Source of the DNA: Arcobacter sp.
GTDB taxonomy: Bacteria > Campylobacterota > Campylobacteria > Campylobacterales > Arcobacteraceae
Assembly: GCA_002685075.1 (NCBI GenBank)
Contig: NYWO01000087.1
Coordinates: 1 to 41,697 of the forward strand
Length of the DNA stretch: 41,697 bases
Direction of reading: 5' to 3'
Position numbers and translations under genes: made by a program. Positions within the stretch are counted from its first letter, which is position 1. Each line of letters opens with the position of its first letter. Shown here piece after piece: positions 15,168 through 18,739 of the stretch. The notes under the pieces were generated by a model. It worked only from the letters and a program-made list of their open reading frames with translations. It had not been told where the DNA came from and did not search any database.

Positions 15168-16463
15168 ATGAATAGTATTATAGGTTCCTCTGGAATATTA
15201 ATATTCTTATCTTTCATTGTTACGCTTTTTGCATATTTTTTTAATACAGAATTATTAGTATATGCAGGGGCCTTAGCTTGGGGGTCACTTCTGATTTTAT
15301 TTTCTACAATTAAGAAAAAGAAGATGTTATTAATTCTTTTTGCATTGAGTTTTGTAGCTTTTCTTATTTCCTATATAAATGATTTTGATGTAAATATAGT
15401 AAAAGTATTTACAGTAAATCAATACTTATTAACTCTTTTAATAGGTGTTGGATTTTTAAGACTTATTGCTATTCCAAAGCAAGAGCAGATAAGTCAAAAT
15501 ATATTGCCAAAAGGTAAAAACTCTTTTTTTAAAACATATTTAAGTGTTCACTTATTTGGCTCAGTAATAAACCTATCTTCATTAATTTTAGTTGCTGATA
15601 AACTATATAAAAAAGCTCCTTTGACAAATATACAAATAATTCTACTTACAAGAGCTTTTGCTTCTGATGCTTATTGGTCCCCATTTTTTGTAGCTTTTGC
15701 TGCTGCTATTACTTATGCACCAAATTTATCTACATCAACAATACTTGTAAATGGAACCTTTTTAGCGCTAGTTACATTTGTTATTTCTTATTATGAGATT
15801 ATTAGAAATAAAGATTTAGATATAGACGAGTTTAGAGGTTATCCTTTATCTTTTAATAGTTTGTACTTACCAATTTGCTTGGCATTTTTAGTTTTAATTA
15901 CAAATCATTTTTATCCTGATATAAAAGTAATTATCTTAGTTGCTGCATTTGCAATATTATTAACATTAATTGTTCTACCAATAAAAAAAGGTTTTAAAAG
16001 AGCAAAAGAAAAGTTTATAAATCATATAAATAACGACCTTCCAAATATGAAAATGGAAATGTCACTTTTTTTAGTAGCAGGAATGTTTGGTATTTCTATA
16101 GGTTCAATTTTAATTGGACTTGATATTGCTTTACCTTTTGAAAAGTTTGATTGGTTTATTGCTTCAATACTTTTAGCTATTTTTATTATTCTAGCATTTG
16201 TTGGAATTCATCCAATTATTACAATAGCAATTATTGGTGATCTTTTAACAAATGTAAATCATACTTTATTAGCTGCAACATTTTTAATGGCATGGTCTAC
16301 AACAGTTTCGACATCTCCTTTTAGTGGATTGAACCTTACAATTGTTGCTAGATATAAAATTGAAGGAAAAAGAATATTCAAATTAAATATTCTTTATGCT
16401 TTAAAAATGTACATTATTTGTGTGCTTTGTCTATATTTTTTATCTAGATATTTAAATTTGTAA
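15168..16463 (+). CDS. Polytopic membrane protein, possibly an ion-transporter-superfamily permease
   Basis: I do not firmly recognise this 431-residue protein. It has about ten to twelve hydrophobic segments, a central charged loop (about 275-305, KKGFKRAKEKFINHINNDLP), and two similar re-entrant-like stretches: LLTRAFASDAYWSPFFVAFAAA (positions about 160-182) and a late FLMAWSTTVSTSPFSGLN. Polar serine/threonine-proline hairpins repeated in both halves recall ion-transporter families such as ArsB/NhaD/DctM. It is last in the PanE-like/DMT unit. A hairpin with a T-run follows at 16507-16583. Confidence 0.8.
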   Translation: MNSIIGSSGILIFLSFIVTLFAYFFNTELLVYAGALAWGSLLILFSTIKKKKMLLILFALSFVAFLISYINDFDVNIVKVFTVNQYLLTLLIGVGFLRLIAIPKQEQISQNILPKGKNSFFKTYLSVHLFGSVINLSSLILVADKLYKKAPLTNIQIILLTRAFASDAYWSPFFVAFAAAITYAPNLSTSTILVNGTFLALVTFVISYYEIIRNKDLDIDEFRGYPLSFNSLYLPICLAFLVLITNHFYPDIKVIILVAAFAILLTLIVLPIKKGFKRAKEKFINHINNDLPNMKMEMSLFLVAGMFGISIGSILIGLDIALPFEKFDWFIASILLAIFIILAFVGIHPIITIAIIGDLLTNVNHTLLAATFLMAWSTTVSTSPFSGLNLTIVARYKIEGKRIFKLNILYALKMYIICVLCLYFLSRYLNL

Positions 16464-16492
16464 AAAATCATACAATTATCATATTACTAATG

Positions 16493-16498
16493 TATAAT
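16493..16498 (+). promoter_or_regulatory. -10 box directly upstream of a stem-loop
   Basis: Perfect TATAAT within AATGTATAATTTTC. The predicted transcription start near 16505 is two bases before the left arm of the stem at 16507, so the RNA would begin with the hairpin. Confidence 0.45.
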
Positions 16499-16506
16499 TT
16501 TCATAT

Positions 16507-16583
16507 AAAAAAGGTAGATGCAGACTCATTTGTATCCTTTCTGCTTCCTAAATTATAAATAATTTGCATTTACCCTTTTTTTT
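16507..16583 (+). terminator. Long stem-loop with T-run: terminator, attenuator or small RNA
   Basis: The left arm 16507-16522 (six A, then GGTAGATGCA) pairs with the right arm 16565-16583 (TGCATTTACCC plus eight T) with one bulge and one G-U pair. The 42-nt loop can form an alternative pairing, GCAGA (16520-16524) with TCTGC (16540-16544), which would use bases of the terminator stem. As a plain terminator it would end the 13317-16463 unit; with the promoter at 16493 it could be an attenuator for the next gene or a roughly 78-nt RNA. Confidence 0.6.
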
Positions 16584-16631
16584 ACTTACATTGGTTACAA
16601 TTATCTAACTCTTACAGAAAGTGACTATTAC

Positions 16632-17558
16632 ATGAATTTATTTCTAATTTTATTATCAAAAATTTCACCTTTATATTTAAATATTGTACTTGGATATATT
16701 CTAACAAAATATTTAAAAGTTAGAAGAGATTATGTTGCTTTTATTCTTATATATATTTTAGGACCAATTGTAATATTCTTTGCAACATTATCAATTAATA
16801 TTAATATGCAACTTTTGTTTTTACCTGTATTTGTATTTATTTTTGGTTCAAGTATTGCCTTTTTTGTCCTTTATAGATATAAAAATGAATGGAAAGATGC
16901 TAGTATAAATACTCTTGCTTTTACATGTGGAACTGGAAATACAGGTTATTTTGGTATTCCTCTTGCTATGATTTTATTAAGTCCCGAAAATGCTAATATA
17001 TTTATTTTTGCTACCTTAGCTTCTTTATTTTATGAAAATACTACAGGCTTTTATGTAACAGCAAAAGGCTCTTTCACTGCACGTCAATCAATAGTTAAAA
17101 TTATAAGATTACCTCTTCTTTATGCTTTTATTGCTGGACTTTCTTTAAATATAATTGGTGTTGATGTACCTTCATTTGTAGTGCCATATTTTGAAATAAT
17201 AAAATGGGGATATGGAATACTTGGAATGATGATGCTTGGTATGGGGATGAAAGGCTTTAATTTAGCAGAAGATATGGATAAAAAATTTATAAAAATTGCA
17301 TATTTCTTTAAATTTTTCTTTTGGCCAGCTGTAATACTCTTAATCATTTTTATAGATAAAAACTTCTTTGGTTTATTAAGTGAAGATATTTATGATGTTT
17401 TATTTTTATTCTCAATTGTACCACTTGCAGGAAATACAATAACACTTGCAGTTTTATTAAATGCAAAACCACAAAAGGCATCTTTTACAGTATTACTAAG
17501 TAATTTAATATCAGTAATTTACATACCAATTATGTTGTATTTATATGGTGGTGTCTAG
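16632..17558 (+). CDS. AEC-family (auxin efflux carrier-like) transporter
   Basis: Inner-membrane permease of the AEC family, whose bacterial members carry malate, malonate or other organic anions. The 308 residues form about ten membrane helices in two halves, with the family-typical CGTGNTGYFGIPLA (about 98-111) and a matching late segment PLAGNTITLAVLLNA. The ribosome binding site is weak (AGAAAG, far from the ATG). It is separated from the upstream unit by the hairpin element at 16507-16583 and converges on an NlpC/P60 gene. Confidence 0.87.
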   Translation: MNLFLILLSKISPLYLNIVLGYILTKYLKVRRDYVAFILIYILGPIVIFFATLSININMQLLFLPVFVFIFGSSIAFFVLYRYKNEWKDASINTLAFTCGTGNTGYFGIPLAMILLSPENANIFIFATLASLFYENTTGFYVTAKGSFTARQSIVKIIRLPLLYAFIAGLSLNIIGVDVPSFVVPYFEIIKWGYGILGMMMLGMGMKGFNLAEDMDKKFIKIAYFFKFFFWPAVILLIIFIDKNFFGLLSEDIYDVLFLFSIVPLAGNTITLAVLLNAKPQKASFTVLLSNLISVIYIPIMLYLYGGV

Positions 17559-17586
17559 AAGAAATTAATCTATAATTCTTCTAGAC
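17553..17586. terminator. Bidirectional terminator between convergent genes
   Basis: Perfect 11-bp inverted repeat GTCTAGAAGAA / TTCTTCTAGAC with a 12-nt loop. It includes the TAG stop of the AEC gene and the stop of the minus-strand NlpC/P60 gene, so both coding ends are built into the stem. Confidence 0.6.
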
Positions 17587-18170
17587 GTCCAGTAAGCTTT
17601 TTTATAAAAAGGCTTATCTACTTTTGAGAATTTCACACCTTTAATTGAAGCATGCATAAAGTCTCCATTACCCATATATACACCAACGTGTCTATCAACC
17701 TTTCCAGTTTTAAAGAAAATTAAATCTCCTAATTCAAGTTCAGATTTAGCTACTTCTGTACCTACTTTAACTTGAGTTCTAGTGCTTCTTGGAATTTTTA
17801 TATCGAATTTCTCTTTATAAATTCTTTGTGTAAAAGCAGAACAATCAATACCTTTTTTAGAGTTTCCTCCAAATCTGTATTTTACATTCTTCCATTCATT
17901 ATAAAAGTCCATAAATTGCTTATTCATATTTATTGCATCATTCTTTGATACAGTATCATCTTCTTTTAATAATTTCTTATATTCTTCTGGAGTTATAATT
18001 GGTTCATACTCTATAGTAGCTTCTTTTTCTACTTGTACGTGATCTATTTTATCTGCTTTAATCTCACCATTATTTTTGTGTAAAGTATTCTCTACATAAA
18101 CATTAGGTTTGTTTTGACAGCCAATAAAAAATAAAAATAAAGGTAACGCTAAATAAGTTTTTCTAATCAT
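17565..18170 (-). CDS. NlpC/P60-family lipoprotein, peptidoglycan endopeptidase
   Basis: Predicted cysteine hydrolase cutting peptide stems of peptidoglycan. The 201-residue protein has a lipoprotein signal with FIGC (Cys18), a charged linker to about residue 85, and an NlpC/P60 domain with the nucleophile motif KGIDCSAFTQ, the histidine motif DRHVGVYMGNGDFMHAS and the preceding LGDLIFFK. It resembles E. coli Spr/MepS in layout. A second, clearly related copy lies just upstream (18221-18739); the 50-nt gap between them suggests tandem duplication. Confidence 0.9.
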   Translation of the reverse strand: MIRKTYLALPLFLFFIGCQNKPNVYVENTLHKNNGEIKADKIDHVQVEKEATIEYEPIITPEEYKKLLKEDDTVSKNDAINMNKQFMDFYNEWKNVKYRFGGNSKKGIDCSAFTQRIYKEKFDIKIPRSTRTQVKVGTEVAKSELELGDLIFFKTGKVDRHVGVYMGNGDFMHASIKGVKFSKVDKPFYKKAYWTSRRIID

Positions 18171-18220: not shown

Positions 18221-18739
18221 TTAATGAAGAATCCTTTGAGATTTCCAATAGTGCTTACTAAAGTATACATTGTCAAGTCGTGATATGGTTACACCTTTCT
18301 TTGTAGAGGCATGCATAAACTTTCCATTCTCAATATATATGCCTACATGACGTGAATTCCTTCCTGTTTTAAAAAAGACTAAATCTCCTAATTTTAACTC
18401 AGACTTTTTAATACGTTTACCTTTTTTTGACTGGAGTATAGTTGTTCTTGGAATTTTAATATTATGTGTTTTCTTATATGCTTTTTGGATAAATGCAGAG
18501 CAATCAATACCATTTTTAGAGTTTCCTCCAAATTTATATCTTACTCCCTTCCACTCTTTATAGAATTTAGAAAATTTTTTATTCTTATTTATCTTTACTT
18601 GTTTCTTTTGGATAATAGTTTTTTGTAATGAAGCACTTGCATAAGGCAAGTTTGTTTGAATTGGTTCTGGGTCTTTTTTAGAACAACCAATAAAAAGAAA
18701 TATAAGTAGTGCAAATAATATTATTTTTTGTATTTTCAT
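18221..18739 (-). CDS. NlpC/P60-family lipoprotein, second tandem copy
   Basis: Paralogue of the adjacent downstream gene: both share FYKEWK/NEWK...VRYKFGGNSK, GIDCSAF, KxPRxT, KSELxLGDLxFFKTGxxxRHVG and the FMHAS histidine motif. The 172-residue protein has a lipoprotein signal with FIGC (Cys19) and a shorter, very basic linker. The catalytic Cys and His are present, so it should be active. Predicted location is the periplasmic face of the inner or outer membrane. It is divergent from the lipoprotein gene at 18828. Confidence 0.9.
   Translation of the reverse strand: MKIQKIILFALLIFLFIGCSKKDPEPIQTNLPYASASLQKTIIQKKQVKINKNKKFSKFYKEWKGVRYKFGGNSKNGIDCSAFIQKAYKKTHNIKIPRTTILQSKKGKRIKKSELKLGDLVFFKTGRNSRHVGIYIENGKFMHASTKKGVTISRLDNVYFSKHYWKSQRILH

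Follow-up and report, generated by a model that had tools for sequence, protein, structure and literature searches.

A probable trans-acting small RNA in part of the Arcobacter family, with the acetate-uptake genes yjcH-actP as its predicted target

The intergenic gap between a permease-like gene and an AEC-type transporter gene of an Arcobacter sp. carries a conserved hairpin (Table 1), which is probably a trans-acting, independently transcribed small RNA directed against yjcH-actP. The case, built by computational comparison of genomes, is strong for the RNA and good for yjcH-actP as its target, and it points by inference to repression. All positions refer to the window, i.e. the whole stretch of DNA analyzed, which is 41,697 nucleotides of contig NYWO01000087.1.

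Results

Structure of the hairpin

The preliminary description of this DNA had read TATAAT, a hairpin and a run of eight T in succession, and all three are present where it had placed them. The hairpin has a folding energy of -18.7 kcal/mol while the mean of its shuffles is -7.3 kcal/mol (z = -5.1, with none of 200 shuffles as good). It consists of an outer helix of 18 pairs with one base bulged and an inner helix of seven pairs, the latter paired in 94.9% of cells across the 26 sequences described below, and of a 19-nt hairpin loop (16535-16553). The C/U-rich loop reads 5'-UCCUUUCUGCUUCC-3'. The hairpin was not listed by the terminator scan, which accepts loops of 3-8 nt only. That no known riboswitch class can be recognized here, as already stated in the preliminary description, agrees with the complete lack of Rfam 15 matches at gathering thresholds across the whole window. 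Below threshold seven weak matches were found in 16440-16700, the best of them mir-1252 on the minus strand, which scores 23.8 bits where 70 are required. A known Rfam family was thus rejected for the hairpin, and so was a repeat element, as the hairpin is found at one place per genome.

Table 1. Features of the RNA locus and its neighbors, with positions in the window.
Feature	Position	Strand	Basis
Permease-like membrane protein gene, 431 aa	15168..16463	+	constant neighbor; "permease-like" by eye
Promoter box ATCATACAATTATCATA upstream, with ATCATA twice, 11 bp apart	16467..16483	+	conserved upstream of RNA loci
-10 element TATAAT	16493..16498	+	conserved hexamer
Predicted small RNA hairpin and terminator-like T-run	16507..16583	+	shuffle z -5.1; covariance-model match
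Outer helix, 5' arm	16507..16524	+	fold; inner ten pairs covary
Inner helix, 5' arm	16528..16534	+	fold; pairs with 16554-16560
Near-invariant motif UAUCCUUUCUGCUUCCUA, contains proposed target-binding loop	16533..16550	+	conservation; complementary to yjcH ribosome-binding site and start
Inner helix, 3' arm	16554..16560	+	fold
Outer helix, 3' arm, merges into T-run	16563..16581	+	fold
T-run (eight T) of predicted intrinsic terminator	16576..16583	+	read in sequence
AEC-type transporter gene	16632..17558	+	Pfam Mem_trans PF03547, E 1.7e-8

Conservation and covariation

A covariance model built from 15 sequences matches the window at 16503-16587 on the plus strand with 98.1 bits, and 26 of 104 genomes of the family, in 4 of 20 genera, contain a match, always at a single place. 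A model of this kind across relatives had been proposed as a check in the preliminary description, and by it the stem is both conserved and covarying. The search of 397 sampled genomes of the phylum, family members included, used stricter filters that lose weak matches and gave ten matches, all already among the 26. For the 121 bases around the hairpin, matches exist in all ten genomes of the genus, in nine across the hairpin and in one (G007) in the tail only. No model match was obtained at the G007 locus, nor in 20 regions following the permease gene, which were drawn from 45 RNA-negative genomes with a permease match (the permease being broken in G017). Eighteen named contigs possess the loop motif and 12 of these score at least 62.9 bits; the six from other phyla reach at most 26.6 bits or nothing and were taken as chance matches.

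Conservation of the loop far exceeds that of the stem letters, with UAUCCUUUCUGCUUCCUA exact in 18 of the 26 sequences and GCUUCC present in all of them. Evidence of covariation rests on 15 chosen rows, in which 5 of 17 pairs are changed on both sides, and on the 26-sequence alignment fitted to the model, in which 8 of 17 are. The latter alignment contains 29 cells with both-side changes, compared with a shuffled mean of 8.6 and with 0-8 in slid controls. RNAalifold predicted no pairs from a plain MAFFT alignment of 25 loci, as its 5' arm is not in register. This plain alignment comprises 25 of the 26 loci L002-L027, without L011, in which the loop is missing, and without L028-L031, which were left out as chance matches; the 15 rows are those of the 25 loci whose arms aligned.

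Promoter signals and strand

With up to three mismatches, a 16-mer of the promoter box, ATCATACAATTATCAT, is present upstream in all 26 RNA loci, and the exact 17-mer occurs once in the genome of the window, at the RNA locus. The box is probably the site of a regulator, the regulator itself being inferred. As a marker of a regulon it was set aside as weak, since with up to two mismatches it is matched 66 times in the ten genus genomes and its reversed control 41 times, and among the eight loci inspected several resemble coding sequence by eye. A box-like repeat, ATCATAAAAATATCATA, was also observed before a lactate permease gene (Lactate_perm, PF02652) of the same genome (G000:C89:8673-8689). 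This string is found in five of the ten genus genomes, two of these loci having been inspected, and it could be the mark of a shared regulator.

In all 26 loci a hexamer resembling TANAAT or TATANT begins 37-45 nt ahead of the loop motif, a permissive pattern in AT-rich DNA that was counted with no null, and the same holds for the presence of at least five T among the eight bases after the stem, likewise an AT-rich signal, in 23 of 26 loci. The promoter scan does not list TATAAT (16493-16498) on the plus strand, and its 21 promoter-like sites are no more than the 23.2 obtained in shuffles, so the promoter call rests on conservation. Transcription would start near 16505. The intergenic gap thus holds, as signals read in the sequence, the putative promoter and terminator of its own that one expects of a small-RNA gene.

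It is hardly credible that the RNA is instead made from the minus strand, to serve as a CsrA sponge through the two GGA motifs of the minus-strand loop AGGAAGCAGAAAGGAUA. The minus strand does fold better in 4 of the 26 loci, but in the other 22 the plus strand does (mean -16.3 vs -12.1 kcal/mol on the minus), and G-U pairs, which are common in the stem across loci, turn into mismatches on the minus strand. The -10-like hexamer and the T-run are on the plus strand, and at the same place in the genome of the window the model scores 35.5 bits on the minus strand against the 98.1 bits on the plus. Strand folding and model scores are the grounds on which a minus-strand RNA was rejected.

Neighboring genes

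At every one of the 26 loci the permease-like gene lies directly upstream of the RNA and in the same orientation. Neither Pfam (at E 0.001) nor NCBIfam (at E 1) gave a match to the 431-aa protein. In G093 this gene is apparently frameshifted (tblastn splits it into two pieces that differ in frame, with internal stops) and the RNA is kept. Such a constant neighbor raises the question of whether the hairpin could be the intrinsic terminator of the permease gene with no regulatory role, which we regard as unlikely. The model match begins about 40-56 nt past the last permease codon wherever compared, a T-run follows the stem in most loci, and the hairpin may well also terminate the permease transcript. 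A terminator, however, needs neither a near-invariant 18-nt loop nor a conserved promoter ahead of the stem, and the 20 regions examined after the permease in RNA-negative genomes contain no model match. The "simple terminator of the upstream unit", named in the preliminary description as the fallback, therefore leaves the near-invariant single-stranded loop unexplained.

The downstream side is far less constant. AEC follows downstream, intact and in the same orientation, at 16 of the 26 loci; one locus (G028) has a remnant, and at nine AEC is missing from the 1.5 kb examined. The remnant in G028 is 35% identical, covers the first 88 residues and lies 101-292 bases past the loop of an intact RNA. 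At loci without AEC, relatives of NlpC/P60 genes face the RNA; in the window two adjacent paralogous NlpC/P60 genes are found on the minus strand, at 17565-18170 and 18221-18739. Since the RNA is kept without an intact AEC gene in 10 of 26 genomes, it is independent of AEC, which is a neighbor and stands outside the RNA system.

This bears on the other proposal of the preliminary description, an attenuator or riboswitch that would control AEC through a competing pairing of GCAGA with TCTGC. Both motifs are indeed present in the window (16520-16524 and 16540-16544), and TCTGC is found in 25 of 26 loci, but GCAGA in only one. A switch of this kind is expected to have two exclusive conserved pairings and to be linked to the gene that it controls; for the GCAGA arm, which is the pairing examined, the former was not found, and the linkage fails at the ten loci without intact AEC. 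A connection through the loop is not apparent either, because the start region of AEC pairs with it weakly (-9.5 kcal/mol, which ranks tenth among 50 mechanically called ORFs). A GTTACAATTA-like stretch that recurs just ahead of AEC resembles, by eye, AEC's own promoter. With the permease in all loci, AEC in 16 and GCAGA in one, we consider an AEC attenuator very improbable. The independent RNA of about 78 nt, also suggested in the preliminary description, is in turn favored by its presence in 26 genomes with both the -10-like hexamer and the box and by its persistence where AEC is not intact.

In two RNA-negative relatives, G041 and G043, AEC is preceded, by eye, by a -10-like hexamer and by an ATCATA/TTCATA repeat similar to the box. 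The promoter may therefore once have served AEC, and it may be older than the RNA.

Predicted target

To find targets of the small RNA, the complement of the loop, as a 14-mer with up to two mismatches, was searched for in the ten genus genomes. The genome of the window contains 12 such sites, the RNA itself included, vs eight for the reversed control, therefore the number of sites is unremarkable and what stands out is the location of one of them. All 11 non-self sites were inspected, and a single one covers the ribosome-binding site and start of an ORF longer than 60 codons. This site, GGGAAGCAGAATGAAGGA, lies ahead of a 104-aa gene whose product is a DUF485 protein (PF04341, 98.8 bits) and which we take to be the gene called yjcH (YjcH). 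It is followed by the gene for ActP (NF006903, 875.8 bits, cut-off 750). Two tandem DUF485-actP pairs are present in this genome (G000:C117:9000-16000), and ackA together with a second ackA-like gene is situated near them on the same contig. A loop-complement match at the start of yjcH was found in seven of the ten genus genomes, that of the window included.

We compared yjcH in 60 genomes (all 26 RNA-bearing and 34 selected RNA-lacking) of the 84 with a match. GGAAGC precedes the downstream copy in 22 of 24 RNA-bearing genomes and in none of the 32 RNA-lacking ones examined. G028, which fits neither yjcH copy, is contained in this count, and without its doubtful row the share is 22 of 23; it was left out of the site trait on the tree and of the run and energy comparisons. 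If wobble is allowed, the downstream-copy site is present in 24 of 24 genomes with the RNA vs 1 of 32 without it. The mean longest Watson-Crick run at this copy is 9.3 nt with the RNA (23 genes) vs 4.8 nt without it (32 genes). GGAAGC was found before the upstream copy in no genome, and the wobble form in 9 of 24 with the RNA vs 0 of 31 without; the longest exact run is here shorter in the presence of the RNA (5.7 vs 6.8 nt, p 0.0006), which counts against the proposed pairing. Two RNA carriers, G001 and G011, have no downstream-type yjcH that we could find; the remaining copy of G011 is without the site and that of G001 has the wobble site only.

Duplex energies at the downstream copy differ on average but overlap (-18.8 to -12.9 kcal/mol with the RNA vs -18.8 to -7.1 kcal/mol without it), since any purine-rich ribosome-binding site offers pairing to a C/U-rich loop. 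In the genome of the window the yjcH duplex of -21.8 kcal/mol is the best of 50 ORFs (next -15.5, mean of the 50 including yjcH -7.6), a rank that is no independent test since yjcH was preselected by the search.

The association of RNA and site also has to be seen against the phylogeny. In a tree of the Pta genes from 69 genomes, five changes are needed for the RNA label and five for the site. Fifteen RNA-lacking species group there in a single starred clade that lies within the RNA carriers, and the site is absent in all 15. Starred branches yield three independent pairs, with a median p of 0.25 in the sign test. With so few independent changes, shared ancestry could explain much of the association, and yjcH as a target is well supported, short of proven. 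The conserved and predictedly single-stranded seed is complementary to the translation start of its candidate target, as expected of a trans-acting RNA, though with weak phylogenetic independence.

Other candidate targets

A small RNA of the same anatomy could have other main targets, either pta or, through an anti-Shine-Dalgarno-like loop, ribosome-binding sites generally. We checked ackA and pta, identified through the Pfam acetate kinase and phosphate acetyltransferase families, in 70 of 89 genomes, with G067 left out of the ackA counts because of a contig edge. The pta site AGAAAGGATA, complementary to the 5' half of the loop, is found in 14 of 26 genomes with the RNA vs 2 of 43 without it, and GGAAGC precedes ackA in 5 of 26 vs 0 of 43. 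We also take UCCUUUCU to resemble the 3' tail of 16S rRNA, which would fit the more general of these readings. However, the exact pta site is missing in 12 of the 26 RNA carriers, the genome of the window among them. Among the four genes compared (downstream and upstream yjcH, ackA and pta), a site near-universal with the RNA and absent from the examined genomes without it was found for the downstream yjcH alone. That other genes are the main targets thus seems improbable.

The small share of RNA carriers with GGAAGC before ackA indicates that this hexamer is not simply the usual ribosome-binding site of the clade. Before pta it was found in none of 26 genomes with the RNA vs 5 of 43 without it (G063, G064, G069, G070 and G076), and RNA-lacking G044 has GCAGAAAGGATA there, a perfect complement to part of the loop motif, so complementarity by itself is no proof. 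A pattern search for the ribosome-binding site gave 128 matches in 12 genomes. Among the approximately 70 loci inspected there are other genes with the motif before their start, and none was seen, in this unsystematic follow-up, to be as conserved as yjcH.

Discussion

The small RNA directed against yjcH-actP would act as follows. An RNA of about 79 nt would start near 16505 from a promoter in the gap that separates the permease gene from AEC, under whatever signal is its trigger, and the RNA's own hairpin would terminate transcription while keeping the C/U-rich 19-nt loop open. Once expressed, the RNA would pair in the cell, through this loop, with the yjcH-like DUF485 gene, at its ribosome-binding site and start codon; this gene is the first of the yjcH-actP pair for acetate uptake. 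Such pairing would block translation of yjcH, and less of the acetate importer would be made.

Helicobacter pylori belongs to the same phylum as the Arcobacter family. Its RNA RepG, encoded between hp1043 and hp1044, uses the C/U-rich loop of its terminator hairpin to pair with a homopolymeric G-repeat of the tlpB leader; homologues were reported as not found outside Helicobacter, Arcobacter genomes being among those searched (PMC8295292). The two RNAs share the principle, predicted in our case, of a C/U-rich terminator-hairpin loop set against a purine-rich stretch of a target leader. Unlike RepG, the RNA described here has permease, AEC or NlpC/P60 genes as neighbors and GGAAGCA, not a G-repeat, as its predicted site; neither the hp1043-hp1044 location nor pairing with a G-repeat was found for it.

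Another comparison is offered by SdhX (RybD) of enteric bacteria, a small RNA that comes from the 3' end of a metabolic gene and represses ackA; RNase E releases it from the sdh-suc mRNA by cleavage, and it needs Hfq (PMC6393394, PMC9438474). Both RNAs are sited at the 3' end of a gene and act on acetate metabolism by pairing, which is a prediction in our case. The differences are that the RNA described here possesses conserved promoter elements of its own, so release from the upstream mRNA by RNase E is unlikely to be its only route, and that yjcH-actP, not ackA, is its main predicted target. From both RepG and SdhX it is set apart by neighbors, predicted target and promoter rather than by sequence alignment.

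It has been reported that non-coding RNAs are not conserved between Campylobacter jejuni and Helicobacter pylori, with the exception of stable RNAs such as 6S (PMC3847290). A screen of Arcobacter sp. L yielded unnamed conserved intergenic motifs confined to Arcobacter (PMC6429828). These motifs are like the present RNA in being conserved, intergenic and from the same bacterial group, and it may be one of them. Otherwise a literature search on small RNAs of Arcobacter, Aliarcobacter and Poseidonibacter, on dRNA-seq and on actP or acetate small RNAs gave no report of this RNA.

A more extensive model can be put forward tentatively, and as a whole it is rather less probable than its core. The RNA may represent a new family, present in part of the Arcobacter family, in which one loop would serve a small acetate regulon. 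The 3' half of the loop would block the yjcH-actP start in nearly all carriers, while in some lineages the 5' half would act on pta and the 3' half on ackA. Site and RNA would have been lost together in one large clade, and the loop would double as an anti-Shine-Dalgarno mimic, working free of Hfq.

The presence of the RNA across four genera, its covarying stem and its predicted conserved target would mean that the Arcobacter family has a testable way of controlling acetate uptake after transcription, and the predicted site is precise enough to be tested by one matched mutation pair.
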